Notes under the pieces: generated by a model
Database searches by the model: none
What the model was told of the DNA's origin: nothing
The model's input: only the letters and a program-made list of their open reading frames with translations
Made by a program: the position numbers and the translations under genes
Shown: one piece after another, positions 2,515 through 54,005 of the stretch
How positions within the stretch are numbered: position 1 is the stretch's first letter
Layout: every line of letters starts with the position of its first letter
From: Ischnura elegans
Taxonomy: Eukaryota > Arthropoda > Insecta > Odonata > Coenagrionidae
Assembly (NCBI RefSeq): GCF_921293095.1
Contig: NC_060246.1
Coordinates: 15,022,001 to 15,086,000, forward strand
DNA: 64,000 nucleotides
Reading direction: 5' to 3'

Positions 2515-3630
2515 TGGCACTTTCATTCACACCAAATATATTAAACCTTCATTCACACATTACGTAACACAAGGTCATTCGCAATATAAACATCACACCA
2601 TCATTCACGCACATATATCGATAAAAACGCTTAATTATAATAAATAATCCCCTCTCATTCACACTCAATAACACATCCTCACTCACACTAAAGTTAAGAA
2701 CTAAAATCGCACTTCCATTAATATCTCATTCACACCAAATATCATACCATCATTCACACGAATAAAATACCTCATTCACTCTAAATATCATACCATCATC
2801 CACACGAATAAAATACCGCATTCAGACTACATAATATAGCCTTATACACTCGAAAAAATATACATCATTCACACGAAATAACATATATCATTCACACTAA
2901 ATCATATAACCTCATTCACACGAAATAGCATACACCATTCACATCATATAACATTCCACATTCACGCGAAAAACATACCTCATTCACACATATAATCAGA
3001 TCCGTCATTCACACGAAATAACATACTCATTCAGACTAAATAATATACCCTCATTCACACGAAATAGCATACACCATTCACATCATATAACATTCCACAT
3101 TCACGCGAAAAACATACTTCATTCACACAAAAAAATCATAGCTCATTCACACGAAAAAAATACCTCAATCACACGAATTAACATACGTCATTCACACCAT
3201 AGCATACCTAATACACATCATATAATATTTCACATTCACACATAATAACATGCCTCATTCACTAGAATTAGCATACCTCATTCATACGAAATACCTAATT
3301 CACTTCTCATAACATTCAACATTAACACGAAATAGCATACCTTAAATGCACTACATATAATATTCCACAATCACACGAAAGAGCATACATCATTCACACA
3401 AAAATAGCATACCTCGAATTCACACGAAAGAGCATACCTCATTCACACGAAGTAATGCACTTCACACAAAGTAACGACGCCATTCACAATTAATAACACG
3501 CACTCATTCTCCATTAAGCACGTTCTCTAACGAACACTGACTAAATTACTCTCATACAAATATACTAAATACCATTCTCACATTCACACTTGATCTCATT
3601 TTCATACACTAACTTAATCTCATTCACTCA
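2515..3630. repeat. CATTCACACGAAATA minisatellite, block 2, with higher-order repeat
   Basis: About 40 degenerate units of roughly 24-30 bp follow the pattern CTCATTCACACGAAATAACA. A stretch of about 70 bp covering three units occurs almost unchanged at about 2910-2978 and 3050-3119. This gives a higher-order period near 140 bp and means some expansion was by multi-unit duplication. The sequence is purine/pyrimidine-skewed, AT-rich and non-coding. Confidence 0.85.
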
Positions 3631-6600
3631 TTGAAACACAAATTAAATCAAATTCATCAAGAAATACAAAAGGCACATATGCAATCGAAATACGAAACAA
3701 AATATAATCTAAATCTTCAGGCTTCGGATCGCCATTCTTCATCTCTTGAATCTTCATTGGGTCATATGTTCCTATATTGTCTTCATCTCTTGACTCTTCA
3801 GTTCTTCAGTTCTCGATCTACACAATTCGTTTCCTTCTTCATAATTGCTGAGTTCCTGAATCACTTCAATTGGTCAATGTAGAGGCGTTCCACGTTTATT
3901 TCAATCCTAAAGCTGCTTCTTCAATGTCCAACATTGCAAGCTGCCTCCCTTTCTCCCCCTGGTGATAAAACAAATTATCCAATGTACTCATCCATGAGAA
4001 AGAAAGGTCACCTAGTACGGCGCAAAAGTTATTATTCTTGAAATAACCAAATGGTAAAGAATAAGAACATAATTGTAAATAAAAAAGGATTTGACTCAAA
4101 TGATTAAGTTCTATAAATAAACGAATTGGATGTCAAAATTGAAAACATTTATTCCGGGTAGTTGCTGAATTTTAGGTTCCTGCTTAAAGTATATGATATC
4201 TAAAAATATTAATTTTATGATTCTTGAAAACACAAGAAAAACGGAAACAAGGGTAAAAAAATGAACGAAAATCATTTGAAGAAACTAATTTCCATCTAAT
4301 GGGGCTTGCAGGATATCTTTTAGGAAACGTAAAAGAAATATTCTCAGGATTAAATAGAAATGGATTGTACAATGATAGGGGAAAATTCAGCTATAATATT
4401 CATCGATTCGCCTAGACTTTAGGGTTCATATAGTGAAGTAGAAAATAAAATTGACGCATGCAAGGATTAACTGACATCTTTAAAGTTTGAAAAAATAAAT
4501 AATTTGCTATTTTCAAAGAAGTAAACCAACAAAAATGTAGCGTACCGATTGGAAAAATTAAGATTCATTGATACACAGTGGTAAAGTATGATAATCAATG
4601 CAATCTTATGATAATATTACAAAAAAATCAAAGTGCACCAAAAAAACGTAGAAAACAAAAGAATGCGAACATCACGATACTTCCAAATTCACCTATAGTC
4701 ACGTAGATTGCGCAGTAGTAAATTGAAGCAAATAAGATTTTGTGCACGAAAAATCATTTCTTCCTTAGAAAACAAGTCATAAATCATCATCTTGGATGAA
4801 ACGGATATGAAAGATACGACTTTTATGGAAATAAATATTAATTTTTATTGTCCAACTACTGTGTAATTATTAATTTTATTAGTTAAAAACTTCTGAATAC
4901 CATTATCAATGCACGTAAAAATTTAGATTTTGCCAAAAATTAGATGAAGTGATAGGCGTTGTTAGATATTTTCCTGTCCAATATTTTGCGAGATAATATT
5001 AAATTTTATAAGGTTTTTAGAGTTACATCGTATCTGCTCCCGTCATGTGTTTTCAAAAAATTAATGGGGACATCCCATTTTTATACATGAAATTAGGTCC
5101 ATTTATGGCTACAACGAAATTTTTTCTCAACCACAGCAAAAATCTATCTATGAGCACCTCAAATTATCTATTCCGATAACAACTAGACTTTTCGGTCAGG
5201 CACTCCAAAGAGTTCAATTCTCCAGATCAAATTATAATCACGTATACATTTTTTGTCATTCTAATTTCACAAAGCTGGAAGTAATACTCGTACGACTGGA
5301 CAACATTTGATAACTTTCTGCCGAAAACGGAGGAGGAAAGGCTATAACATCACTTGCGACAATGTTTTTGTGAAAATTATTCTTTTTTTTATTTATGATA
5401 CATCGAAGGGAAAATGTAAAGAAATCAGAAGAGCATGCAGCGAACTGGATGAGCTATCTGTAAATGCTGCCGATCTTATTTTTTAAAAGTATGGAAAAAA
5501 CTGAGAAAAAATGGAGCATTTTAATGAAAATTCGTACGTTTCATGGTTCAATGCTAATTTTCATCAGCAATTGATTCAACTGACAGAGTTATTACCAAAC
5601 TTATGTTGGGCTGAATTTCGGACATCCACCCTGGCTGAATGAAAAATACTGAAATTAACGGTAAGCGTAAGGGATACTGCAAAGGAGTTGGAGAGATCGG
5701 AATAATGATTTATTTTTTAAATATTGATGCATCATTAATTAATTCTACTTTCCATGCACTCTAAAAGAAACGAAAAAAATTGAAGAAATGATTGAGTCTC
5801 CGAAAAAAATCCGTTTTTGCCAGCAGTACTTAGTCTCATTCCAAAGGCAGCAGATCAATTGCAATATACCACCACGAGCAAGTGTAAGAAAAATAATATT
5901 ACTGCATGAAACGAGAATAAAAGTATCTTATTTCACTTTGTTAAAGATATTCACATAGCACACTTTTAAAATAATTAACGGACACACAGAAAAAGCGTAA
6001 TAGAATGATTTTCTTACCTTTTGGCGTGGTGTCAGTACAGTATAACATTCCAGATAAGCGCCATTTTTCCTCCAGCTAACTCCATAATCAGCTGCGATGA
6101 CTTGTAGCTGATGAGAGAGAAACGGGAATTGATTTAATATCCGTGTAAAAATTGAAAATTGAAAAGGTGTATGTAAAAGTGATTTAAAGTCATTTCCAAT
6201 TAATAGTTAGTTTGAGTAGTCAACAGGATAAGTGTTATCTACGCGTACAAAGTATTCAAATATATATACAAAAATTAAAAAAAATTATATTCCGAAAAAT
6301 ATAAACTTTTGGAATTTCTTAAGGAAAGAGTCGATTTCATAAATAAGGAAAGGAAATAAATCACGAATATGAATAAATGATTGCACAGACTAATGCAGAG
6401 GTTGAGCATTCAAAAAAGGCTTCAAAAAAATAAAAAAAACTGATCATGACGTATACGTGTGACCCGAGGAAAAAAGATCTTTAAACAAAAGGAATTCATT
6501 TAAATTCATTATTAAGCTCAGAAAATATAAGATGTAATGTATCATGTAATAGACGCAGCAATAGCTAGGGATGGATACGATATTCAAAATAGTATAAAAT

Positions 6601-11963: not shown

Positions 11964-13891
11964 ATGACGAGCACCCGCAAAAGTTTTAACGAAGGATTAC
12001 GACGCCTCTATGGGGAGGAATTCCGACAGCGATCGAAGGAATTCGACAAACTGCGAACCAAGAAGTCATCGCTTCCATGCCAACTGTCTTTTTTCTTCTA
12101 CGTTGCCGAGACTAGCAGATCCTGCCAAATTTTCTGAGACTGCAGCACCGCCTTCGCTCTCGACGCACACCCCGGATTCTTCGCAATGCCAGCAAGCAAT
12201 TACTACGAGCAGCTATTCAAGAGACCCGCCGTGAACTGGACCACGTCGGTAAGGAGCTTTCCAATATACTCATCATTCTCGCCAATGCCATGAAGAAGGA
12301 AGATTTCGAGAGGCTCGACAGGACAGGACGGCATCACACATGATCGCGGTGGCAGAGACTACGAGGGAGAAGCAGAAGAGGAAATTCACAAGATTACGAA
12401 ATTCGCAGAAACCACACAATCCACAATGCGAGGCACAGGTCGTCGTCAACCTCTCAAAACACCCCCTGGACTCGGCCGCCCATTCGATCCTTCGAAAAGG
12501 TTTCAATTACGCGCTGACGCCAAAGAAAATTCCAGTGGAAGAAATCATTAGCGGATTAGAAAGCGCGATTGGCCACTTACCTCCCAGCGAGGCTTACATA
12601 GTTCGACAAGACGCCTGCCGAATCCTCAGAATGAATAAGGAAAATCAGAAGCATAATACCACCATGGCAGAGAGAAAAGCCCTTCGAAAATTGAAAGAAA
12701 ATGACAACACCGTGATTTTACCAGCAGACAAAGGCAACGCGACGGTCGTCCTAGAGAAAGAAGAATATGATAAGAAGATGGAAGAAGAGCTACTTGCGGA
12801 AGGACCGTATCAAAAGATCGACAGAGATCCAACCTCCCGATACAAAAGGATAGTGACAGAAATAATAAAGACTTGTGCACCGGACCCCGCCGAAAGAAGA
12901 AGAATCAGCCCACAGGATCAGAAAACTCCTTGTATGTACGACCTGCCTAAAATTCATAAGGAAGGAGTGCCCCTTAGGCCCATTGTCAGCGCCACTGACT
13001 CATCAACATATAAATTAGCGATATACCTGGCACCGATTTTACAGCCCGTAACAGAAGAGGCGAAATCATACGTGAAAAACTCATAAGATTTCCTTCCGAT
13101 TATTAGTGATATCAAGGTCAAAAAAGAAGACATCCTAGTCAGCTTTGACGTGACATCGCTCTTCACAAATATTACTTGTGGCGAGGCGATAAATGTCATC
13201 AAAGACAGATTCGGAGAAAACATCGCCAAGCAGGCAGAGACTTCCCTCAAGAGCACTTTCTTCCGTTGGAGGAATAATTTTTATCAACAGACGTCTGGAG
13301 CAGCGATGTGTTCCCCTCCTTCCCCATCAATAGCAAACATATTCATGGAACACATAGAAGAAACAGCAATTCAAAACGCCGCCCACAAGCCTTAAGGTTT
13401 GGGCCAGAGATATCGAAGACACTTTTATAATTTGGACGCACGGCAAGGAAAAGCTTCAAGAATTTTATACCTACTTGAACGGGATTAACGACAACATAAA
13501 GTTTACAGTGGAGGTTGAGGAAGACTTCCATTCTTGGACATTCTCGTGGAAAAGAAGTCGGATGGAACATTGGGGCATACAGTGTATCGAAAACCAACAG
13601 CAACAAATCGGTACCTGCACGCTTTATCTAACCATCACCCAGCCCAAATAAATGGAGTGGTCAACGCCTTGATTCACCGCTCCTACACGATAAGTGACCA
13701 GGACAACTTTGCCGAAGAGTGACGGAAGCTAGAGACCATTCTACGGGGAAATGGATTCGACGACAGAGGTAACTCTCGCTCTGTATATAAAGTCACCTAA
13801 AAAAATGAATGAAAAACAACACCGCAGAAGCCGCGAACTCATCCACAAACGACCTCAGCGACCAGAAGAAAGCCTTCCTGCCATACATTAA
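11964..13891 (+). pseudogene. Penelope-like retroelement, N-terminal and reverse transcriptase part (decayed)
   Basis: The reading starts at ATG 11964 (MTSTRKSFNEGLRRLYGEEF) and passes through several frameshifts. A 248-codon open stretch (12340-13083) holds the PLE hallmarks ADKGNATVVL, DLPKIHKEGVPLRPIVS, and an in-frame stop at 13084. After the stop come SFDVTSLFTNI, QQTSGAAMCSPPSPSIANIF (RT motif B-like), a shift to ARDIEDTFIIW, and LDILVEKKSDGTLGHTVYRK with TNRYLHALSNHHP. The catalytic box that is normally YVDD reads DIED here, so the enzyme is dead apart from its stops. The frame runs to KAFLPYIK at 13891, where the TTAA element interrupts it. The endonuclease half continues at 18247. 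Class assignment rests on these motifs. Confidence 0.9.
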
Positions 13892-17832: not shown

Positions 17833-18246
17833 GGTGTTACGTTGACGACATGCCTGTTCACGTAATGAAGATAACATCGCCAACAATTTCGGAAAAGGCG
17901 CTAACTCAAAAGGACCTTCGCATTCACAGGCCTATTTTTTCAGCTCATGAGAGAGGAACCAGAAGTTGGCTTCTAATATTTTTAATTGGCTCGCCGCCAC
18001 TTAGGTGTCACATATCAACTCCGACTGCGAACCCTGTTCCAACGACCCGTATCAAGTTTATCCTGAGTATCAAATTTCTCCTCGGAGTCGTCGCGGGTGA
18101 AGTTGGGAGGGTAGTTGCCTTCCCCCCCCCCCCCTCTTTCTCTCCCTCGAGGCGCTTCGGCTTCCGTCTCCATATCCCGGCGCTGCGGCTAGAGGCCTTC
18201 GTGAGCCGTTAAATTGGGAAATTCAAACGCTAGGGCGCCCCCTTAA

Positions 18247-18838
18247 GGGGACGACTGACGCAATAGGAAATATCCTACGAAAATTCCAGATGAGGACAAT
18301 CTTCTCGCCTCACATACGGATAAAGTATCTCCTGAACACCGTTAAGGATAGAACTCCACTACAAGTGGAAGGGGTTTACCAAATTCCTTGCCAGACCTGC
18401 GGGAAGAACTATATCGGCGAAAGAGGCAGGTCGGTCAAAAAACGCCTAGTAGATCACGCGAGAGCGATTCGACTGGGACAAACAACCAAGTCCGCGGTAG
18501 CCGAACACGCAGCGCTTGGCCACACCATCGACCTCAAGGAAGTCAAAATCCTCGCCAAAGTTAAAGGTTTTAAACAGAGACTCGTCCGAGAAGCCATTGA
18601 AATATCCAAAGAAGAAAAGAATAATTTTAACAGGAATACCGGCTTTAAAATTAGCCGTAGTTGGCAACCCGTAGTGAGAAAAACAAGTAGCAACCCACCC
18701 CCCCAACTTCCCGCTCCCTTTCCCCCACCACCTGACGCAGATACCTATATAAAAGATTTTAAATTCTCATCTCTTCATAATCCCTTGAAAAAGCGACCAG
18801 CATCTGTCAGGAAACGTTGGGGCCACCCAAAGAATTGA
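18247..18838 (+). pseudogene. Penelope-like element, GIY-YIG endonuclease and C-terminus
   Basis: Open frame from the TTAA junction to the stop at 18836-18838. It contains the GIY-YIG type nuclease core: VYQIPCQTC (a zinc-finger-like CxxC), then GKNYIGERGRSVKKRLVDH, and a downstream AVAEHAALGHTIDLKEVKIL region with KQRLVREAIEISKEEKNNF. In PLEs this endonuclease follows the reverse transcriptase and nicks the target. The canonical YIG tripeptide and the R of the next helix are intact, so this half is better preserved than the RT half. The last 300 bp are repeated upstream of the RT at 11631-11945. It ends directly against LINE sequence at 18839. Confidence 0.9.
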
Positions 18839-19375: not shown

Positions 19376-20794
19376 ATAAGCGGCCATGAATTAATCTACC
19401 TTCAGAATGTTCCCAGGATGCGTCTTTACGAAGTCGGAGTCAACCATTGCGCAATACAGGTACCGTAAAAACTTTTTAACTATTCATATCTGTTTTTCAC
19501 ACACCCATCACGTTATGAATCAGTATCGTCGTAGATGTTTGTTATGGTCGTTACTGTTTTGTTATTGCCATGGAGCGAGTCTGCCTACTCGCATTCTGAC
19601 GTAACAGGGCGTTTTTGTAGCGCGAAAGAATTTAGTAATTTTTTCGAACTTTGAAGCTCCCTAGCAACAAGAATATTGAGAATTATGAAGTTTTATATGG
19701 CATACGTTAATAACTTTAACTTACTTATCTAAACTTGTAAAAAAATTACCTTTTTAATTTTATGAGAGCACCCTAGTTCATGTCAAACAAGAAAGACCTA
19801 AAACTAACCCCTCTCCTTTCCATTTTGAAATCATACCTTCCCCGGTTCGAGAAATCATTCGCTGCTAAGCAAAACGAACTCTTAACAACTCTTTGGAACT
19901 ATATACCCCATCACCATACGCTAAGCACAACGTCTATATAGCCTACGACACAATGCCATGATCATACCGAGAAAATTAATCAGCTGAAACCCCCAAAAGC
20001 GCAGAACTTCCCAGCAGACGGATAAAACAGCTGGGAACTTTTAGCTACGATCAAATTCCGCGAAATTTCAGCGTAGCGTGGTCTCTATAATGGCAGTGGC
20101 GCATTCGATATTCTTTTGCTGTCAAATTGACGTTCTTTTCAACTTTCTTATCATCGCTTTCTTCCTCACACCTTCATTACGTCCCTGATAGTTTGAAGAC
20201 AAAAAGCAGTGTCTAGACAAATGAAAGCGATAAGTTCCTCGGAGCGCAAGGAAGGAGATGAAGTATGACGATGGATACCGCAGCGTTTTTCACATTTTCT
20301 TTTCTTCTCGTGATCTCGTCTTCCGTGATATATGGATGCCACAGAAACTCGACGATTGTGGAATAAACTAATTAAACTAAATCTTCGGAGAGCACCAAGT
20401 CGTCATAGTCAAATTTTGTAGGTAAAAATAAGTGAGCATCAAGAATTTTACTAATCGACGTTCGAAGAAAATTCAACATTTGAGGAATAACCCCACTCTT
20501 CCCCCCCAAAGCTAATTCCTATAGTTACGCCACTGATTCTCGCGATTGTGCCATGGCAACGAACAAGGTAACAACCGGCAGCCCAGCAAGGTCAACTTGG
20601 GTTCATAGCACGTTGGTGAGAAATCTATTAAATGGCGGAATGAAATAGGAAGACGTTCTGCCACTCTGTTATTACACTGGAGATTAATAAAATACATTCC
20701 CCTGAGATCAAATAAAGCATAGAGTAAACCAAGAAAATCCTTTCCATTTTAAGAGAAATCTCCAAGTGAAAATCAGCGTTGGTGTCCAGACAAA
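19376..20794. other. No recognised feature
   Basis: Mixed-composition sequence with only short, overlapping chance frames. No repeat partner was found inside the window. Confidence 0.4.
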
Positions 20795-21027
20795 AGGTCT
20801 GTTCAAACGATACATTAACACGTACGAGTTCATTAATGGCTGTTTGCGTGAATGACTTTCGTGGACCGGAGCGGAACATAAATACTAATGTATGAACCAA
20901 ATCCGAACAGGTTCTATTTTCAGTACATGCGTTCGCACGAGTTAAACGTTCCATTTTCGTGTTAATTCACGAGTTCATACATTCAGACATAAACTCTAAC
21001 ATGTAAAAGTATTGTGTGAACAGGCCT
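20795..21027. mobile_element. MITE, 233 bp, AGGYCTGTTCA termini
   Basis: The left end AGGTCTGTTCAAACGATAC pairs with the right end (complement reads AGGCCTGTTCACACAATAC). The interior includes TACATTAACACGTACGAG and ACAGGTTCTATTTTC, which recur at 39495-39680 in a related, shorter copy. I could not fix a target duplication. Non-coding. Confidence 0.75.
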
Positions 21028-22494
21028 TGAGAAAAAAATCCCTGAACCTTTTTTTTTCATCAATTGTACTGACAGCATTGACGTGAGACATGGACGCAAT
21101 TAGGAAAAGTAGTGATATGACTAAACTAAAAACAAACGTGTTTTCGTACAATTACAAGGTGGACGAACAAAAATCCAATTAAACACGCTCCAATTGGAGT
21201 CCATGCAGAAAAGATCCGTTGGAATATAATAAAATAGAAAGTAAATATCATCGGAAAATTAATCACGATATCCAACTTTGTAAGGTAAGTTATGGCCAAG
21301 GAAAAGTACATGGCAGGAGATATTACTATCGATCAGAGTGAAAGCCTGAAAAAGTATATTTAAACTGAAATCCACAAAAGCCAAGTTTAGACTCGAGAAC
21401 CATAGTTACATAAACTCGTCATGCATTTCTACATAACAGGATGACCAAAAAATGTTAAATTTTATTCATAATACACAATTCGATTAATTTGATTTTATTA
21501 TCTTTCCTCGTATTCTGCTCCAATAGTTCACCATTAACTCAAATTTTGGTGGTGTGATTTTGCCGCGGGGCGATTGTCGTCTTTTTTTGTTTATTTTAAG
21601 TAAGAGGTACAATATCAAAATGATCTTAGATGCTTTTCCGTACAGCATACTTAATTCATAAGTAACTTCGATATTCATGTACTCTTCTGAACCTAGGATT
21701 AGACATGTATCTTTCATTCGGCCATTAAAAAAATCAAAAAAAAGGGAAAAATTAATATTGAGAATCTATTTTCAACGCCAATATGTCGTTCTCTCTATAA
21801 TAATACATTAAAATGTTTGAAAACTGTTTGATGATCCATTGTTGCGGTCGAATAAACAATGAGCAAAACGATATATGACACGACCCAATGGAGTTTCGGC
21901 AGAATTTCATACAAATGATTAAATTTCACATTTCTAGCTTTTTTCGCCGATAGCAAACACCAATCACGCAAGTAAATGCATCAAAAGGAAGTTAATGATA
22001 AATATTCCGTCGAACGTGACGCGATTTTTATGTCAACTCCTCCAATGCACATTTCAACCAAGCATCTGTCACGCATGTAGATGCAACGTAATATATACTT
22101 AAAGATATTTTTACACCCTTACGTATTTGATTTCTTACTGCGATATCCTCGCGAGCGTATTAAATTACTTAATTTTTGTAGTCTAACGTTGTTGTGTAAA
22201 CGTGTCCGGCTACGGTATCTATCGCTTTAGTCTCTATCCTTACGATAAGTGACATATCTTTTTACTGCTGGAAGCTTTTATCATGTATTCCAGTCATTCA
22301 ATTGTTTTTATCTCGATTTAAAATTAATTTACTTCGATTTAGGCATTTCGCGGCAATAAAATTGATTTGGTTCAAATTTACTGACACACTTCCCTTTATA
22401 TTTTCACAAATCTCATCACTTCTCACGAATACTATGTAATTGAATGCGACCTAATTATTTTAATTATGGCATATACCCGAAAGGACGTGAATCA
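21028..22494. other. AT-rich, no recognised feature
   Basis: Nothing beyond short chance frames. No terminal repeats or tandem structure found. Confidence 0.4.
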
Positions 22495-23215
22495 GAAATA
22501 TTCTGTAATGTATGACGCAAGTTTTAGTAATATACATTCGGCGGTTGGCTGAATAGATTGTATTTTTGCACAGACATTCCCTGTCGAAAAGGAAGCGTTC
22601 GGGGAAGTGTCCGGGTAGTGTTGCGGGAGTGTTCAGGAAGCGTTTAACGGTACGTGAACGCTTCCCGGCAGCTTCCCGAACACTTCCTCAACACTACCTG
22701 ACTGTCGACCCTTCGCTTGCCGAACACTTCCTCGCCACTTCGTGGTTGAAACACTTCCCGGACGTTTCCCCGACACTCCCGGAACGCTTCCGAAGCGTGG
22801 GAAACACTTCCTCGACGCTCGCTGGACGTTTCCCCGACACTCGACCGCGACCGTTGTCGACACTCCCCGAACGCTTCCGAAACACTTCCGCGGAAGCGTT
22901 CCAAGTGGGCCATAATCTGCTTCCCGAACACTTCCGCGACACCTCCTCAACGCTACCCCAACACTTGCCCGCCACTTCCCGAACACTCCGTCCGACGCTT
23001 CCCCAACACTTCCTCAACACTTCCGTTTCGCCTGGGTTGGCAAGGTTCTATCGAACATAATTCACGGAATAATTAAGAAACTATGAAGATATTCTAACTT
23101 CATTGGATGAGGAGCATTGTATAATCAGATAGAAAATAGAGAAATAGCCGAAATGCAAGGTCATCCATCGAATCACAGCGATGAATTCTCTTCATGGATA
23201 GATTCGAGGGCGTTT
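22495..23215. repeat. Dispersed repeat carrying the 11-bp array
   Basis: The flanks of the GC-rich array match 33575-33805. Left shared parts are ATTCGGCGG, GGCTGAATAGATT and TTTTGCA. Right shared parts are TTCACGGAATAATTAAGAAA, CTTCATTGGAT and CATCGAATCA-like. The copy at 33.6 kb lacks the array, so the array was inserted or expanded within one copy of this repeat. Confidence 0.7.
22591..23025. repeat. GC-rich 11-bp minisatellite with internal orientation switch
   Basis: About 40 imperfect units of 11 bp with consensus ACACTTCCCCA (variants ACGCTTCC, ACGTTTCC, ACACTCCC). The first five or so units (22591 to about 22645) lie in the opposite orientation (GGAAGTGTCCG type) and the rest in the forward orientation, meeting near 22640-22650. 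Several reading frames are open on both strands only because the unit lacks stop codons. Its GC content contrasts sharply with its AT-rich surroundings. Confidence 0.85.
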
Positions 23216-23439
23216 CAATAAGTCTTTCGAAAAAGGTATAAAAGCAAATTATTTGCGGTCAATTTTTTAACTTTGTCTTTTTTCAGCTCTCTAAAATTTT
23301 ATCAGCATTTTCCTAAACATTTTTAACCGCACAAAAAGTATATTTTCGGGATCTCCTCAAAAAAGGCATTATTTTGGGCGAAGAATTGCTTCCTGATACA
23401 TAAACCTTTGTCTGCTAAGCCATTTCTTCGAGAGTTGCA

Positions 23440-24190
23440 AAATGGGAAAAAGTTATTGAGGGCCAATTTTTGTGAATACGGTGAATAATTTTGTGATAAT
23501 TGGTACTTTAGTTCCGCAGTTTTTTAGCAAATAAAACAGCATAAGTGTGCAACAGTGCATTGCCTTGTAAGAGGAGGACCCTCGGAGGTCAAAAAACCAA
23601 CAATACGGACCTATGAACTGCCTAACCGACTTTGGCACACTTCAAAACCTATGGTTTGACATGTTGGTTGCCATGATGGCCTGACGTTTAACTCTATGAC
23701 CTTTGACCCCCATTGTGACCCTTGGAGGTCAATTTGTGAATAATACGGGTATTTGGACAATACCAATGACTTGGGCACCCTATAAAACCCATGGATCGAC
23801 ACCTTTGTTGGTATACTATTCCGTTTGCCACCCTTATGACCTTGACGGTGACCTTACTGGGTCAACGGTAGAATTTTCGTCAATAAAAGTGTTATTTTCG
23901 GGTTTCTCGGGTCCGAAACCCTGAGAATTGACATCTTGGTCAATGAAATTCAGACATTTTTATATCTCGATTTTTTTAACATTGAAACCCCATAAGGCAA
24001 ATTCAAAATTTTGCTTTGGACCCAAATTTTGAGGTCAAAAGGTCAAAATTGTAAAATTTTGCTTACACTCAACAAAACTTAGGACCTTTTCCCATAAGTG
24101 TGCCAATTTTCATGAACATTGCTCTATGGAAAGTTACTAAAATTACAGGTCAAAAATGACACACGACCCTTGGGACAGTCTGTATAATCT
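23440..24190. repeat. AGGTCA-rich region (clustered nuclear-receptor half-site-like motifs)
   Basis: AGGTCA or its complement TGACCT recurs at least nine times: about 23587, 23698 (inside TGACCTTTGACCCC, a DR1 spacing), 23727, 23837, 23850, 24032, 24041 (AGGTCAAAAGGTCA, DR2 spacing) and 24149. GACCC variants lie between them. The surrounding sentences of sequence are loosely repeated (GACCTT...ATGGTTTGACA; ACCC ATGGATCGACA), so this may be a decayed repeat rather than an enhancer. Confidence 0.45.
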
Positions 24191-24312
24191 AGTTTAAATA
24201 AACAGCAGAAAACGCCTAGGTTTAAGTACTTCTAAGACTTCGAAATTACGAAACTTTCTTCGTGTTGATAAAATATTTAAAAACTAATTTAATGTACGTA
24301 ATGTTAGTAATA

Positions 24313-24973
24313 GGGTGGTTTCCTATTATTTTTTTATTGCCTAAATCGAAAGATTATTACTCCTGGAGTACGTATTTCACGCTTTTAGATTTTTAAATTA
24401 CGATATCTATTTTTCGCGATCAAATGAAAAGTGAAAAATTTCAAGCGCGCGAAAAAGCGACGCTTAAGTATGAATGTCGGGAAGTCTCTCCGCGTGACGT
24501 ATTTCTGGTTCCCCCTCCCGCCCTGCGAGGTGACCTTGAGGCGAGGCTTAGCGGTGATACGACGCAGGGTGCTAGCGGCTAGCCTAGTACCCTGCTGACT
24601 GGTAGCGCTTGGCTTAAATAAGGATTATTAATAACTTATCAAACGAGGAAAACTTTCCGACCTTAGCCAGTTTTAATAAGTGATTGTTAAGACATGTTTC
24701 CCTGAGCTCTGCGCCTCATGCATGCAATGGTAACCTCAGACGACGTATAACTCCTATCTTCTCGTATAGAAACTAGGTCCCTGTGACGTCACGTGGAGTG
24801 GCATCGCATGGGCGCCAATCTGGCCCTTTTCAAATGTGGATAAAAATGGACCATTGCCATTCGTCTGAACTGGGATTTCTAAAACCAAATAATTTGTATA
24901 TTATGAATACACTAATGGTGGGTAAGGAATCGCAATCAATGCCTTTCGTTTTTTTTGATGAAGGAAACCACCC
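24313..24973 (+). mobile_element. TIR element family A, copy 1 (661 bp, TA target)
   Basis: The ends are GGGTGGTTTCCT and its complement AGGAAACCACCC, each bordered by TA. The interior has CTAAATCGAAAGATTATTAC, a CGCGCGAAAA motif, a GTGACGTCACGTGGAGTGG block near the right end, and no coding frame of interest. The TA target and short TIR suggest a Tc1/mariner-related MITE. Related copies lie at 25458, 30316 and 33151. Confidence 0.85.
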
Positions 24974-24979
24974 TATTAT

Positions 24980-25457
24980 TTAAGTGCAATGCACATTTTT
25001 TTTCAGATTTCATTTCTTTTCACCAAATCATTTGATCAATTTTTCGGATGAAATGCATATATTATACGGACGCCCGAAGTTTCAAAATCGAAACCGAGGG
25101 TTTACGATGCTCTTTCTTTTAATTTTCGCCAAAATTAGAGAAATTTGCTCTTGAAATGGATGAGGAGGATTAAACCGTGATGCATTGCACGTGAAACTAA
25201 TAATAGTTTTACTGGAACCGAAATAAGGGAAAGGAAAATGTGAATTGTGAGTTGAAGTGCTCAAAAAAGCTATAGCGAATTCTGCGTGTCCATTTCACAC
25301 CATTCGTCCTTGAACCAAACCACCTTGATCCGCTTCCTGTTTCTTAAACGATCGCTGATAATTTCCCTCTTGATTTTATTTTTTTTCATCTCGGGAAGTG
25401 CCCGTCTCATAGCAACTCATTCGAAAAGTATCATTTCTTCAGCTCAACGGAATCATA
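24980..25457. repeat. Spacer between inverted family A copies, partly duplicated downstream
   Basis: The part at about 25056-25245 (GAAATGGATGAGGAGG, CCGTGATGCATTGCACGTGAA) is a diverged match to 26112-26330 (CAAATGGTGGAGGAAG, CCGTGATGCATCGCATATGAA). Each thus lies on one side of family A copy 2. I see no coding sequence. Confidence 0.65.
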
Positions 25458-26110
25458 GGGTAGTTTCCTTCATCAAAGAAAACGAAAGGCATTGATTGCG
25501 ATTCGTTACCCATCATTAGTGTATTCACAATATAAAAATTATTTGGTTTTAGAAATCCTAGTTTAGACGAATGTTAATTGTCAATTTTAACCTAATTTGA
25601 AAAAGGCCAGATTGGCACCCATGCGATGCCACTCCACGTGACGTCACATGGACCTAGTTTCTATACGAGTAGATAGGAGTTTTACATCGTCTGAGAATAC
25701 CAAAGCATGCATGAGGCACAGAGCTCAGGGAAACATCTCTTAATAATCACCTATTAAAACTGCCTATGGTCGGAAATTTTCCTTTGTTTGATAGGGTATT
25801 AATAACACTTATTTAAGCCAAGCGCTACCTGCTAGCAGGGTACTCTGCTACTTGCTAGCAGCCCACATCGTAGCGGCGCACATATCCTCGCCCCAAGGTC
25901 ACCTCACACGGTGACAGCGGGAACCAGAAATGCGTCACACGGGCTTTTCCCAGCATTCATACTTAGCCGTCGCGTTTTCGCGCGCTTGAAAATTTTCATT
26001 GAATCGCAAAATATAGACATCGTCATTTAAAAATCTAAAAGCGTGAAACACGTACTCCAGGAGTAATAAACTTCCGACTTAGGCAAATAAAAATAATAGT
26101 AAACCACCCT
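25458..26110 (-). mobile_element. TIR element family A, copy 2 (653 bp, inverted)
   Basis: Opposite orientation to the copy at 24313. The ends are GGGTAGTTTCCT and the complement of GGGTGGTTTACT, with TA on both sides. It keeps the internal CCACTCCACGTGACGTCAC block and the TTTCGATTTAGGC-like end (as the complement). The pair forms a large inverted repeat of about 655-bp arms around a spacer of 484 bp. Confidence 0.85.
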
Positions 26111-26330
26111 AATATATGCAATGAGCCATGCACACCCTGGTATTTTAAAATTGAAAAATAAGGTTTTATGTCATCCTGATCCTCTGTTTTCCGCCGAACT
26201 TCGAAGAAATTGTCCTTCAAATGGTGGAGGAAGCAGAGGCCGTGATGCATCGCATATGAACCGTTAGTGAGACCGTAATAGGGCCTGAAGATACAGAAAA
26301 GGTGGCCAAAATTCACTACAGAGTCAACTG

Positions 26331-27944
26331 TCCAAGATGTTATGCAATGTAGGAGTTTAACATTTCAATAAATAATTAAGAGCTTGGGAATTCGGTAGTC
26401 ATTCCACATCCCCCGCACCTCACACGGCTTAATAGTTTAGCTCTAGAATAAGTTTACACGAACTAAGTACAATAGGCTCTACATTTACACTTAATAACTT
26501 ACTACATTTGTCAATACTAACTATAGCTATTATTATCAACTAGTAGCTTATGCTTAGCTAAAGCTAGATATATTTGCATGCTTCTCTTGGCATGTTATAA
26601 CTCTTGCATGAATCTCTCACTACGCTAATATTTCGTTTTCCTATTACTTACTAGAATGTTTATTTGCATGGTATAATGGTCGTGACATGAACCCTTAAAC
26701 CTTTCTTTCATAGCATGTTGATTAACCCAATCCACCAACTGTACTACATGGAATCATTACTTTAATAACTTTCGTCGTTTAAATGCATTCGCCATTTACA
26801 TCCTCTTGAGCAATGTGCATATATAATGAGTTCATTTTTAAAAATGCCTCTTTTAAAAATTTGAAAACGTGTAATTACTTCGGACTCCACCACTCCCAGA
26901 ACACTTCCGCAACTACTACTCATAGCATAGACCCAATCGGCTACGGAACTAAGTATCATTGAGACATAAACAGCAAGACGTAATGTGAATCTAACGATAG
27001 GAAAATATCCTCGCCACGGAGCCCGAAAGAAAACACTCCGACGCGTCGGAAAACACTCGGACGCGTACGATTTTAAATAATTAAGTTCCAAACAAAGTGA
27101 AATATCCAACGGTGTCCCCGAGTCTCTAGGCCCCCGTGTCGCGGAGCCGGGACGTGCAGCGCGATCGAAAAATCGCGTTCATTAATGAAGGGGCAAACTT
27201 TTTTCAAAGATTTTTGCTCCATTCTCTTAAATGATGTCTATTAAATACTCTGAGGAAAAATTGGAGATATGTTTTTTCTTAAACTAAAGATATTGTCTAC
27301 TTTATGTCAAATTTGGCCAGAAAAAAGGGTCCGCCATTTTGCGACATTATACTGCACCAATACTAACCAAAAAGTTAAAAAATAATGGAAAGTGTAGATA
27401 AAGTACCATATTTTTGGAATATAACGTTTTTTACTGCATTAAAATCCTTCAAAACTCTACCAGCAGTTTAACTCCGAAGTTTTTCGGAGAAAAACGAGAT
27501 CGGGCGTGTTTTTGGAAATTTGGTCATGTTTGATCCCCTGTATCTCAGTAACGGATTAGATATAGGAGAAATAACTTATTATACCGTGATCACCAACTAT
27601 TTTTGAGTATATACGCCAAGTTTCAAGTCACTACCTCAAAAAACGCAATTTTGGACTTTTGTCCAGCTTTTTCCGATTTCAGACCACTGTGCGACGGCCC
27701 AAATGGCTGCAGGGGCGTGAGTTTCTTCAGTGCATTCCATCCGATAATATTAATTTCGATTGGGCATTCGATCTTGGAGTTAGACTCCTGCTTCGGTAGC
27801 TCTGTCGCGTCCGTCCTCGTCGGCTCTTGGTGCCGCGAAGGCTAAGGATGCAGTAGAAACCACCACCGCCGCAGAAACCCGGAGAAGACAGCTCATTGGC
27901 TGGGAGCTTCGATCAAGAGTATATAAGAAAATTCCGCGTTGCGT
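26331..27944. other. No confident feature; possible old repeat at 27190-27700
   Basis: The stretch 27190-27700 has the look of transposon interior (for example CCGCCATTTTGCGAC and CACTGTGCGACGGCCCAAAT). Its CACAGTGG part weakly resembles 9640 on the opposite strand. No ends were found. The rest is AT-rich. Confidence 0.35.
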
Positions 27945-30183: not shown

Positions 30184-30315
30184 TTGGAGTGCAATAAAGA
30201 GGAGTGAAATAAAGAGATTTCAAGATAAGATACCACACATCTTCGGTCAGTATACTCCACTTCGATCTGATTTCTGAAGTCCGTAATACGAGACAAAATA
30301 TCTTAGCATATAATA

Positions 30316-30982
30316 GGGTGGTTTCTCATTATTTTTTTAATACCTAAATCGAAAGATTATTACTCCTGGAGAACGTATTTCACGCTTTTAGATTTTTTGA
30401 TGACGATATCTATTTTTCGTGATTAAATGAAAAGTGAAAATTTTCAAGCGCGCGAAAACGCGACGGCTAAGTATGAATGATGGGAAAAACCCGTGTGACG
30501 TCGTTCTGGTTCCCGATGCCGCATTGTGAGGTGACTTTGGGTCGAGGCTCTGAGCGCTGGTACGACAAAGGATGCGATAGCAGGTAGCAGAGTACCCAGC
30601 TACCATGTAGCGCTTGGCTTAAAAAAGGATTATTAATACCTTATCAAACGAAGGAAACTTTCAAACCTGACGCAGTTTTAATACCTAGGTGATTATTAAG
30701 AGATGTTTCCCTGAGCTCTGTGCCTCATGCATGCATTGGTAATCTCAGACGATGACAAACTCCTATCTACACGTAAAGCATGTAGGTCCATGAGACGTCA
30801 CGTGGAGTGGCATCGCATGGGCGCCAATCTGGCCTTTTTCAAATGAGTATAAAATTGACCATTAACATTCGTCAAAACCGTTATTTCTAAAACCAAATAA
30901 ATTGTATATTATTGATACACTAATGGTGGGTAAGGAATCGCAATCAATGCTTTCGTTTTCTTTGCTGAAGGAAACTGTACCC
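30316..30982 (+). mobile_element. TIR element family A, copy 3
   Basis: Same order as 24313-24973, including CTAAATCGAAAGATTATTAC, the CGCGCGAAAAC motif, CTGAGCTCTGTGCCTCATGC and GACGTCACGTGGAGTGGC. The left end is GGGTGGTTTCTC after TA. The right end has decayed (GGAAACTGTACCC). Confidence 0.85.
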
Positions 30983-31300
30983 GATTACGTAATCGATCAA
31001 ACTTCCTCGCATCGCTTTCTAAAAAATCGATTTTTTTAAACCAATAGCACCGGTATATAGCAAAAGGGCGAATCTACTGTTGCTGATTAAATATATCAAT
31101 CAATCAATAGCAGTTGAGCGTGATTTCACGCTCTCCGTCATAGCCAACGCGTGCATGCCCATTGCTAATTCGTAGGTTGAACTCTCGCAGCGACATGAAC
31201 TATTATTTCGACCTGCGACTCGATCAAGTAAAAATATTTTTTACATTGCGCTTAACCATGATACTTATCAGATAAATAAATACGGAAAATTTTGATGAGT

Positions 31301-32529: not shown

Positions 32530-33150
32530 TATCGGACTGTCAGTTTTCAGTGTTGATTACAGATTCAAAATAGTACGGAAAAACTTGATAATATGGAAAA
32601 TATAAAAAGATCAACCTATGGAAGAAAAAGGAGATGAAAGTTATCAACATACTAAGCAAAATACTGCAATAAAAAATAATTTACTTACCCCCGTGCGGGT
32701 GACTGAAAAGTCTTTCAATTCCATGTCTATACATAAATGCTTCTCAAGTCGATAAATTCAACGAGTCAACTAAAATATTAGCGGAACGGTGAAGAAAGAC
32801 ATCCATTTGAACTTAATATAGCATCAAAATGTAGCGCATGTCAATTAGAGCCCAGAAAAAAAATTAAATTCGCGCATCCAATATGTCGGACGCTGTGCAC
32901 TAATGGGTTAAGTTACTAATTGGCAAGATCATAATCGGCACGGTATCCATTGGCGATGCGGGTCCAGATTGTCGCGTGAACAGCTGTCTATCATTATGTT
33001 TCTGCAAGCGAAAATGCTACCTTTGATTGACATTCATCATCAATTTGAAAGAAGTTTACCGCCCAAAGTGCATACGCTTGAAAAATGTTCGGGAGCGGTG
33101 CAGGAAATTTAATGCTCGCCGTCTCAACGTTCACGAAATTCATTGGAATA

Positions 33151-33408
33151 GGGTGATTTCCTATTATTTTTTTACACTGCCTAAATCGAAAGATTATTAC
33201 TCCTGGAATACGCATTTCACGCATTTAAGGTTTTTTTATGACGACATCTATTTTTCGTGATTAAATGAAAAGTGAAAAATTTCAAGCGCGCGAAAAAACG
33301 CGACGGCTAAGTATGAATGATGGGTAAAGCTCCTGTTGACGTATTTCTGGTTCCCGATGTCGCATTGTGAGGTGACTTTGGGGCGAGGATATGTTCGCCG
33401 CTGCGATG
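33151..33408 (+). mobile_element. TIR element family A, copy 4 (5' fragment)
   Basis: Starts GGGTGATTTCCT after TA and follows the family consensus to GGGGCGAGGATATG and TCGCCGCTGCGATG, where it stops abruptly. A 20-bp perfect hairpin begins at the next base. Confidence 0.85.
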
Positions 33409-33453: not shown

Positions 33454-33574
33454 TAAACGAGACTCAAGCCAGGTGACCAAATTAGTACTTATATAGTAAT
33501 AGCAGCAAGTGCGATAGCACGCAATGCCTTGGAAGGGATAGTATGACAAGTATTCTCTTAAATATGACGACCTT

Positions 33575-33805
33575 TGTTAGTTGTATATATATTCGGCGGC
33601 TTGCTGGATAGATTTTCTTCTGCAAAGGCATAGGAAAGACTCCAATAAACACTACTCACGGGATAATTAAGAAATTAAAGCAAACTTCTTCATTGGATTG
33701 GGATCACTATAAACTCAAACTAAAAAAATAGATAAATACCCGCCACGGAAGATCATTCATCGCATCAAAACAATATAACAAATTCTATTCTCCGATAGAT
33801 ATACT
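33575..33805. repeat. Dispersed repeat, array-free copy
   Basis: Matches the flanks of the 11-bp array: ATATTCGGCGGCTTGCTGG, TTCTGCA, CTCACGGGATAATTAAGAAA, TTCATTGGATTGGGAT and a CATCGCATCA block. No GC-rich minisatellite lies between the two halves, so this gives the pre-insertion state. Confidence 0.7.
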
Positions 33806-41693: not shown

Positions 41694-42555
41694 GTGTACA
41701 TTAGGGCGGATCGGAAAAATCGATTTGTTTCAAATCCATCTGGCCCAATGAAAAAAAGTTGTGGGACCGATCAAAAATAAGGCCTGAAAAATTTGAGACC
41801 TCTAGGTGAACCCCTGACCCTCGCTCAAATGCAATTTAGGGGGGGATGGTCGAAATTCGAAAAATATGGTATTTTATGGTCATTTCCTATAGATTTTGCC
41901 GAGTTACTGCCCTCTTGGGCTAAAATTTCGTGCATTTTGATGTATCTGCCACCGTTTAGCCACAAAATGCCTAATTTGAGTCCGCGTCCGCGAAGAAAAT
42001 ATTCCAACGCCCACGCAGCGTCGCGGATACAAGAGCCGCAGGCCGATCCCCTCCCCTCCCCGCTCGCTTCTACCCCTCCCACGCCTCCAATACAGCAAAA
42101 TTCATCCTGCGTATGCTGCTAGGAGGTCGTTTATCTTGGATAATATAAATCGGAGGATGGTAGAAGGTAATAAAGGAAGCTTAGTGAGACGACTTGTCCC
42201 TTATTAGGCGCCTCGTCGGGGTTAAACAAATCGATGTTACCAACTTTTAGAGAAGTGATGAAATATTTTTAGATCCGAGAACGCAGGAAAGGAGCCTACG
42301 GTCCATGAAAAGGCCTCTCGAGTGGCTATAAAGGTGTGCGAACTATGGTGACGCTTCCCTTCCATTATGTGTGTGACTAAATGGATTTAGCGGTACAACA
42401 GGAAGTACTAAAACTTACGGAAAATGCGAATAGGCCAAAAGTAGGGTTTTTGCTTAAGTACAAACCTGAAGCCTTTTTTAAGAACATTTGAAATTATGCG
42501 ATATTTTTGCGTGTAAGTACAAGAAGGAGCATAATGTTCCCCCCAATGAAGAAGT

Positions 42556-43223
42556 ATGTTGAGAGACCAGCGGACGAAACTAAAGATGATGGCTGCTGGA
42601 TTGAGTCCTAAAGAAACTCGACAATTGAGGAAAAAAAGAGAATCGTCGGAGAGTGTTGAGTCGACATCGTCAATTCTTGTATGGGAAAATAGTATCAAAA
42701 ATTTTCTTCATCAATTCATCCGAAGAAAATTAAACTGTAGAGAAATCATCCGATTTTTATCCCTACGTTCCTCATCAAATAAAAATTCAGGGCTAAACTC
42801 AAACTGGAACTTCTGCGTGGAAAATGCGTCTGTCAAATGTGATAGAGGTATATGCAAGGACCAAGAAACAGCAATGATCGTCCCCGCAACTTTAGTTGAC
42901 GCAAAAATCATAACTTCGTAAGATACATCCAAGGTAGTGTGCAAGAATTACTTATGTATACAGAAAAAGATGCTAATTATTGTGAATACGAAAAGAGAGG
43001 TATCAAAGGGTGTCATCAAAGGGCTACAGTTTGATGGAGTGAAAGACTATACTTTTGTCTGATGAAAAAAGGCAAAAGGACTTATCAATCCAAGTTTAGA
43101 GGGGAATGTGTGATGTTAGTTGAAGAAACAGGGTCCCACTTTTGGGGGTTTGCCTCCCCCGTCGGAGGATTAGCAAAAGTTATAAAATCTGCGATTCTCG
43201 ATTCCTTTCCAAGTGAAAATTAG
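42556..43223 (+). pseudogene. Broken gene inside the long-arm element (transposon-protein family)
   Basis: The frame from 42556 runs to 42921 (starts MLRDQRTKLKMMAAG, ends PATLVDAKIITS). Past its stop, the same frame continues to about 43055 with KGVIKGLQFDGVKDYTF. A shift then gives 43062-43223: QSKFRGECVMLVEETGSHFW, GFASPVGGLAKVIKSAILD. By memory, uncharacterised transposon proteins of insects and cnidarians share this order: a ...LVDAGII block, GLYFDGRKDKTL, then ...EPGS.Y.GHVTP....K.I..SI. The invariant downstream GCDGT...NTG block is not found here, so the gene is 3'-truncated. Two frame breaks make it non-functional. The family link has not been checked. Confidence 0.55.
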
Positions 43224-43328
43224 ATACACAAAATTAAAAAGGATTTGAATGCGATGGTACCAAGTGAATACCGCCCAAAAAGGAGGTATCATCCCTATGC
43301 TACAAGCATAATTCCAACATCCCTTGCT

Positions 43329-43455
43329 ATGTGAGTAAACTCTTCTCGGGATTCCCACCGGGTTAATTTTTCCATAATGGCAAACGTTTCAAGCTCCGAC
43401 TCGGGGCTCATCATCAGGGATTAATTTCGATGAATCCCGAGAAGAGTTTACCCAC
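43329..43455. mobile_element. Palindromic mini-element, about 125 bp
   Basis: GTAAACTCTTCTCGGGATTC near the left end is inverted at the right end (GAATCCCGAGAAGAGTTTAC). The centre, read on the minus strand, contains CCTGATGATGAGCCCCGAGT followed by CGGAGCTTGAAACG. It interrupts the broken gene of the long-arm element, so it arrived after that element. Confidence 0.75.
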
Positions 43456-44578
43456 ATCATTCGCCGGGAAAGCATCAAATCATATTTCATCCCTTACAGA
43501 GGTCTATTTGCTAATTGCACTAAGTTGACTTACATTTGCGACATAAACATTGGGAGGGCAATATAAGGACCGAATTTGCGTTGTTGCAAGGATGCGTTTG
43601 GCGGCCGATCCGAGATTTTTTAAACGGCTGGATTTTAATATCAACTTTAAGGACTACTCGCTGATGACATATTGGAGAGAGACCACAGTAATAATTCCAA
43701 CCATCCGGCTATATCTGACCTTAGTGCTGTGGATTTTCAAAAATTTCTTGATGAACGTTCAAATTTGAAGTTAAATATTTCGTTTTATTATACATACTTA
43801 CGGACGAGAGATTCGTGAAGAACTTCACCAAAACTTTGTTGACAACAGCGAAAGACGAGGAATGAGAAATACAGATTTGAAAGAAGGTAATTGAGTAATT
43901 CATTCGTGATTGTTCCTCCACAGACGATGCTGAAACATTAAATATTAGTTAGACTAACGAATAAAGACACACTTGGTGTAAATTTTGGTGCATTTGGCGC
44001 GTGGGAGAGGCTTGTGGGGAGGGCACGCGAGCGGCTTTCGCACAAAATCCATTTAATCACATCTGTCGGACAATGCCGAAATTGGAGCGCATATCCGAAG
44101 TTCGCACACCGCCACCCAGCCACTCGAGAGGCCTTTCCATGGACCGTAGGCTCCTTTCCTGCGTTCTCGGATCTAAAAATATTTCATCAGTGGGAGGGGT
44201 AGAAGCGAGCGGAGAGGGGAGGGGATCGGCCTGCGGCTCTTGTATCCGCGACGCTGCGTGGGCGTTGGAATATTTTCTTCGCGGACGCGGACTCAAATTA
44301 GGCATTTTGTGGCTAAACGGTGGCAGATACATCAAAATGCACGAAATTTTAGCCCAAGAGGTCAGTAACTCGGCAAAATCTATAGGAAATGACCATAAAA
44401 TACCATATTTTTCGAATTTCGACCATCCCCCCCTAAATTGCATTTGAGCGAGGGTCAGGGGTTCACCTAGAGGTCTCAAATTTTTCAGGCCTTATTTTTG
44501 ATCGGTCCCACAACTTTTTTTCATTGGGCCAGATGGATTTGAAACAAATCGATTTTTCCGATCCGCCCTAGTGTACAT

Positions 44579-53794: not shown

Positions 53795-54005
53795 CAGAAA
53801 ATAAACATCTATAAGATATCTACAGATAGATAAATAGTTATCTAATAGACATCTATTATAGATATATTATTGTCAAAATAGCAGCAGTTCTAATAGATAT
53901 CTACGGTAGATGTCTATTAGATATCTACTCTAGATGTCTATCAGATATCTACTGTAGATTGCTATTAGATATCTACTTATCTGTTTTATACTTATCTATA
54001 TCTAC
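53795..54005. repeat. AGATATCTA-type palindromic minisatellite
   Basis: Units of about 22 bp such as TAGATGTCTATTAGATATCT, and shorter ATAGATATCTA units, repeat across the region. Each core (AGATATCT) is itself a palindrome, so strands can pair within and between units. AT-rich, non-coding. Confidence 0.85.

Follow-up and report, generated by a model that had tools for sequence, protein, structure and literature searches.

Does a GC-rich array of 11-bp units, the first of which face backwards, belong to the place where it lies, or did it arrive there as a mobile unit? The array in question lies in a 64,000-nucleotide stretch of the Ischnura elegans genome (C1:15022001-15086000), to which we refer as the window. 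The original prediction for this locus described a GC-rich array that switches orientation, could fold into a strong hairpin and is inserted in a repeat whose other copy lacks it, and suggested a mobile or rapidly amplified unit of an undescribed type.

An 11-bp array within terminal inverted repeats

The array and its orientation switch are real. An 11-bp period runs across 22591-23024 (to ~23024/23025), the lag-11 identity of the right arm is 0.476 compared with a maximum of 0.378 among 2000 first-order Markov controls, and the GC content is 0.59, compared with 0.31-0.46 in the window (per 2 kb). The left arm consists of five inverse-oriented units at 22591-22644, the number that had been predicted. 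For the opposite orientation ~35 units had been predicted; ~30 direct units are recognisable in the right arm, as far as 23024-23025, and an extra inverse unit lies among them at 22892, so that the array has more than one orientation switch. The predicted extent, 22591..23025, describes the array well, but the actual unit of interest is slightly wider (Table 1).

The predicted hairpin potential was also borne out: compared with dinucleotide shuffles, 22580-23060 folds with a z of -5.5 and 22586-22703 with a z of -5.1. The first 62 bases of the wider unit match the reverse complement of its last 62 at ~80% identity. Thus, terminal inverted repeats are present, and the inverted start of the array is part of the left one; its five inverted units pair with the units that close the array on the right. 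When the units of the two arms were compared in mirror order, as a single inverted duplication might leave them, the centre-adjacent placement scored best at 45 and the second place scored 44.

Table 1. Coordinates of the element, its repeats and its host repeat in the window
Feature	Position	Strand	Basis
Full-length 458-bp copy of the non-autonomous transposon, with ends CCCTGTCGAAA ... TTTCGCCTGGG	22579..23036	+	Boundaries common to 42 distinct insertions; excision fit to empty relative
Left 2-bp target site duplication copy, TT	22577..22578	.	Perfect 2-bp duplication in 42/42 insertions
Right 2-bp target site duplication copy, TT	23037..23038	.	Perfect 2-bp duplication in 42/42 insertions
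Left terminal inverted repeat, ~62 bp: CCCTGTCGAAAA, then inverse-oriented 11-bp units	22579..22640	+	Alignment with right end
Right terminal inverted repeat, ~62 bp: last 11-bp units and TTTCGCCTGGG	22975..23036	-	Alignment with left end
Site at which the units change from inverse to direct; middle of strong potential hairpin	22645..22655	.	Fold z -5.5, -5.1
Subterminal array, ~30 direct 11-bp units and one inverse (22892); consensus roughly (C/G)AAC(A/G)CT(T)CC(N)	22656..23024	+	
Older repeat hosting the insertion, left part	22496..22578	+	Matches 33548-33631
Older repeat hosting the insertion, right part	23039..23203	+	Matches array-free copy
Related older-repeat copy without the element (empty site)	33548..33800	+	Similarity to both flanks

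A coding role of the array was rejected: one forward-strand frame is free of stops, as is the case in 24.8% of 1000 Markov controls, and Pfam gave 0 families for the array frame. Rfam gave 0 matches in the window. The array had no match in plasmids or phages, window positions 20000-27000 had none in plasmids, the left-flank pattern had none in viral contigs, and viral relatives of one window frame were not found. A second array of the same kind was not found within the 64-kb window, in which two other tandem arrays occur, one at 2721-3456 (23/70/139-bp, AT-rich, with CATTCACAC units) and one at 53814-53982 (24-bp, largely self-complementary).

Arrays of the same period were also seen outside the insect. 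The idea that 11-bp arrays of this motif are generally favoured was rejected, as three-unit scans in viral contigs found 4 stretches at period 11, 4 at period 10 and 10 at period 12. Four bacterial contigs (L026, L025, L028 and L031; Prevotella, Pedobacter, Prevotellaceae and a bacterium) carry short 11-bp arrays whose motif is similar and which have inverted units no more than 200 bp away; in L026, direct and inverse arrays face each other across a spacer, and by their flanks all four are unrelated to the window. Such nearby inverted units accompany 4 of 17 period-11 arrays, which were found by motif, compared with 0 of 14 period-10/12 arrays, which are viral only. Two viral contigs, L002 (~1516-1720) and L014 (~702-870), share a region with an 11-bp array, GGAAGCG(CA/TT)GC, of 17 and 14 units, respectively, so that array length differs between related contigs. 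By eye both arrays end in two inverse units, a feature above background in one test and not in a stricter one.

Dispersed copies and an empty site define the element

We searched the genome (1.72 Gb, 110 contigs) for other copies. The 12-base word CCGAACACTTCC occurs 598 times, compared with 348 for its reversed control, and spacings of 44 and 204 bases between occurrences recur among the matches listed. In a DNA search with 22540-23060, the best 40 of 266 candidates scored include the window itself, and the other 39 of these show 99-100% identity over ~458-479 bases, that is, over the element and at most ~20 bases beyond it. The fetched loci comprise 42 distinct insertions (window included), all of exactly 458 bp from CCCTGTCGAAAAGGAAG to TTCCGTTTCGCCTGGG, with differing flanks. 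Every one of the 42 is bordered by a perfect 2-bp duplication and none by a 3-bp duplication. The duplications comprise twelve dinucleotides: TT, AT and TA (7 each), TG (6), GT (4), AA (3), CT and CA (2 each), and TC, GA, AG and AC (1 each).

The array therefore belongs to a mobile element, as had been suggested: its copies are dispersed, share boundaries and 2-bp duplications and are nearly identical, and there are a longer relative and an empty site. A rapidly changing tandem array is not supported, all 42 copies being 458 bp long. The genome search that had been proposed yielded many copies, with the inverted start in those examined. The same flanking repeat did not recur elsewhere, and since the flanks of the 42 insertions differ, the older repeat is a chance landing place of the window copy. 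A lack of other arrays, or unrelated flanks combined with the lack of an inverted start, had been named as signs of a one-off local expansion; other arrays do exist and do have the inverted start, while their flanks are indeed unrelated.

The window also holds an exact empty site. As predicted, the copy of the flanking repeat at 33.6 kb lacks the array: 22496-22577 matches 33548-33631 and 23054-23203 matches 33648-33800, at 69-73% identity, with 476 intervening bases in the array copy and 16 in the 33.6-kb copy. Excising 22579-23036 while keeping one TT gave a score of 194 against the 33.6-kb copy, joint first among 625 cuts; the only two ties were the identical cut shifted inside the TT duplication.

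The true boundaries were taken from the other copies, and two readings of the single window copy proved wrong. A 5-bp target duplication, TCGAA, is near chance, 5 bases being shared by 1347 of 5000 random strip pairs. A 9-bp duplication, TGTCGAAAA/TATCGAACA, is likewise near chance: strip pairs agree at 7 of 9 positions in 690 of 3000 cases, and when the left word is kept constant, 230 of 3000 right strips do so. Growth of the array from a seed at 33.6 kb was also rejected, as a direct unit-like word occurs in 82 of 2112 random strips and an inverse one in 564 of 2112.

How recent is this spread? Among the 42 copies, 33 share the sequence of the window copy (which is one of the 33), seven have one difference and two have two; this amounts to 11 substitutions over 19,236 bases, 5 of which are one shared variant, an identity biased upward because most copies were drawn from the best-scoring matches. 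Among 13 copies chosen for their internal spacing, no difference is seen in 7, and 1-2 in each of the other 6. Across the genome there are 236 left ends that fit CCC[A/T]GTCGAAA[A/C]GGAAGCGTT with one mismatch or none, and 0 that fit its reversed control. One hundred of the 236 were listed, all exact, 70 of them in the CCCTG form of the short element and 30 in the CCCAG form; extrapolating from these values, the short form is probably present in well over a hundred places. The near-identical copies and the 236 left ends together indicate that the family spread recently.

Other elements were noted in the window. One at 24308-26119 has ~670-bp inverted repeats (~85% identical) around 470 bases, with two more single arms at 30311-30987 and 33147-33406. 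A ~2.9-kb element at 41695-44577, which looks young, has ends TGTACA(C/T)TAGGGCGGATCGG and inverted arms that are 99% identical over at least 388 bp. A 783-bp element at 57027-57809 has ~300-bp inverted arms; AAAGGATG borders it on either side and, by eye, forms an 8-bp target duplication. Fragments at 13087-13395 and 18101-18838 resemble a Penelope-like retroelement; they include a match to reverse transcriptase that falls short of the curated cut-off (E 3.6e-5) and a weak one to GIY-YIG (E 0.042).

A longer form shares both ends

The genome also contains a longer form of 1060-1167 bp with the same kind of ends, its termini being CCC...GGG as in the short form. A 2-bp duplication is present in 5 of 5 of its copies, and a sixth locus (L110) reads TT...TT by eye. 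Bases 1-202 and ~282-458 of the short form are common to both forms, at ~91-94% identity in four of the five copies and at 86-91% over similar stretches in the fifth (L072). In all five mapped long copies, the units change from inverse to direct orientation beyond the left terminal repeat.

What lies between is a middle of ~530 bases that is less GC-rich and is too small for a transposase of the length found elsewhere in the genome. ARAGORN found no tRNA in it, and Rfam gave 0 matches in the two longer-form loci scanned (L074, L076). One further locus, L109, has a left end with different neighbouring sequence; no matching right end was found within 4 kb, and no transposase-like open frame was seen there.

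Relation to known transposons

We compared the element with known systems as they are described in the source papers. Its CCC...GGG termini, its 2-bp duplication without a fixed sequence (42/42 short copies, 5/5 long) and its terminal inverted repeats are those of TRC-type elements, and its subterminal 11-bp units occur in both orientations, as do the subterminal repeats of CACTA elements. Animal TRC elements start with CCC and make 2-bp duplications (PMC1636069). SmTRC1 and its animal relatives resemble the window element in these two respects and in having internally deleted copies, and the 54-bp terminal repeat of SmTRC1 is similar in length to the ~62-bp imperfect repeat here; the 2-bp duplication is found in only 7 of 14 SmTRC1 copies (PMC1636069). 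The terminal repeat of an Aedes TRC element begins CCCAGTCAAC, which resembles the CCCAGTCGAAAC of the window element (PMC1636069). Unlike SmTRC1 and TRC elements, the copies seen here are without transposase and their body is almost entirely 11-bp array; the likeness in sequence lies in the ends (PMC1636069).

Other comparisons point in the same direction. A Hydra TRC element starts with CCCAGCCAACATTGAC and has 2-bp duplications, and Spongebob / EnSpm-4N1_HM has short non-autonomous forms of 433-496 bp in three insects (PMC4298943). Spongebob / EnSpm-4N1_HM shares with the window element the CCCAG end and 2-bp duplication (Hydra copy) and the short non-autonomous size, but differs in sequence past the first bases, and the two are likened by description only (PMC4298943). 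Subterminal repeats in direct and inverted orientation occur in CACTA elements, and plant CACTA elements of the En/Spm type have, next to their ends, blocks of closely spaced short repeats in both orientations, as here; they differ in having a 3-bp duplication and CACTA ends, whereas the window element has 2 bp and CCC (PMC8978399). A point against a CACTA assignment is that, according to one recent paper, the majority of CACTA-related lineages have CA..TG termini, a rule that the CCC..GGG ends do not fit (PMC12730594). A literature search yielded no paper linking 'CMCWR' with CACTA.

We conclude that the window copy is very probably a young non-autonomous cut-and-paste transposon of the CACTA/EnSpm superfamily, within its animal TRC branch, and that this short form was probably reduced from a longer one. 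CACTA/EnSpm is the most likely superfamily judging from the ends, the duplication and the repeats. An undescribed type is not supported, as TRC-type CACTA/EnSpm transposons have ends, target duplications and subterminal repeats of this kind; compared by published descriptions of its relatives, the element most likely represents a new, recently amplified family of a known transposon kind.

Candidate transposases and alternative origins

Transposase_21 has 26 matches in the genome, all above cut-off, and none in any of 14 control genomes; the open frames at these matches reach 882 aa without stops. At four of these 26 loci (L111-L114), read as 7-8-kb stretches, CCC[A/T]GTCGAAA is absent. Six further loci lie in the part of the genome that the listed exact left ends span, and none of these listed ends is within 100 kb of them, a check that would miss more-mismatched ends. 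Thus, no transposase gene with the element's ends was found among the 10 of 26 loci checked.

In two of the four loci read, short tandem repeats lie downstream of the transposase frame (L111, 5565-5967; L114, 6600-6796), and short subterminal arrays may be common to Transposase_21 elements in this genome. L114 has an 817-aa open Transposase_21 frame at 2657-5110 and, 1.5 kb further on, its array of ~18 palindromic 10/11-bp units, TATACAAATTG, which stops 13 bases before a possible GGG end. This array is an AT-rich counterpart of the one in the window; the left end of the L114 element was not found in the stretch read. Separately, 15 of the 26 Transposase_21 matches lie on C13, C14, C16 and C17 (21.3, 18.8, 11.1 and 10.3 Mb), which make up ~3.6% of the genome; these may be micro-, sex- or supernumerary chromosomes, or contigs of different origin.

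That no partner transposase with the element's ends was found among the loci checked would also be in keeping with a non-autonomous element of another superfamily with 2-bp duplications, possibly an undescribed one, moved by a transposase unrelated to Transposase_21; the PHIS and Plavaka lineages also show such duplications (PMC12730594). We regard this as unlikely. The CCCAG ends match published TRC ends (PMC1636069, PMC4298943), while PlavakaA has TGT..ACA ends and PlavakaB CATCA..TGATG ends, and PHISTA and ESTA use TA only, compared with the twelve dinucleotides found here (PMC12730594).

The architecture of the element raises a further alternative, a foldback element of the FB/Tm1 kind, related to Mutator, in which composite inverted repeats are built of short tandem motifs in unequal arms. 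Such composite repeats are indeed found here, with inverse and direct short units, unequal arms and a strong fold. Tm1 carries a motif of ~14 bp in varying, unequal numbers and has small copies (PMC3169594), and in both Tm1 (PMC3169594) and Tetris (PMC4079207) tandem motifs lie inside inverted arms. However, target duplications are 9 bp in Tm1 (PMC3169594) and 8-10 bp in Tetris, whose repeats are ~220 bp (PMC4079207), compared with 2 bp in 42 of 42 insertions here, and the window element ends CCC...GGG. Membership of the foldback group is refuted by the 2-bp duplication and we consider it very improbable; the likeness in architecture remains.

A minisatellite with an inverted start, grown in place by slippage and hairpin-primed copying, might account for the period-11 tandem structure, the imperfect units and the hairpin centre, but it is refuted for this locus by 42 dispersed near-identical copies of fixed 458-bp length with target duplications and by the exact empty site at 33.6 kb, and its probability is negligible.

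Discussion

If the window element is a TRC-type transposon, its movement can be pictured as follows. A transposase supplied in trans from elsewhere would recognise the CCC[A/T]G... ends, and probably the 11-bp units too, and would cut and join these ends to produce the 2-bp target duplication. The units, which face backwards in the left terminal repeat and forwards elsewhere, most likely serve as subterminal binding sites for the transposase. Loss of the middle of the longer form (~1.06-1.17 kb, same ends) probably gave rise to the 458-bp form; little besides ends and units would then have been left, and the recent spread would have followed. The array owes its striking look to this reduction of the element to ends and repeats.

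It is possible, if doubtful, that an element stripped to its ends and ~35 putative binding sites became the family's most successful member because it attracts more transposase per base than its source, which it might even starve of enzyme. Were this true, the near-identical 458-bp copies would come from a binding-site parasite whose burst is recent or still under way.

What seemed an odd GC-rich array is now recognised as an element that moved recently, for which exact ends, target duplications, a longer relative and an empty site can be given. More generally, a tandem array found within one window can represent a transposon that is dispersed through the genome. Given how similar the copies of this element are, individuals are expected to differ in their insertions. 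Because its body consists almost wholly of candidate binding sites, the element offers a compact natural test object for the subterminal repeats of animal CACTA transposons.
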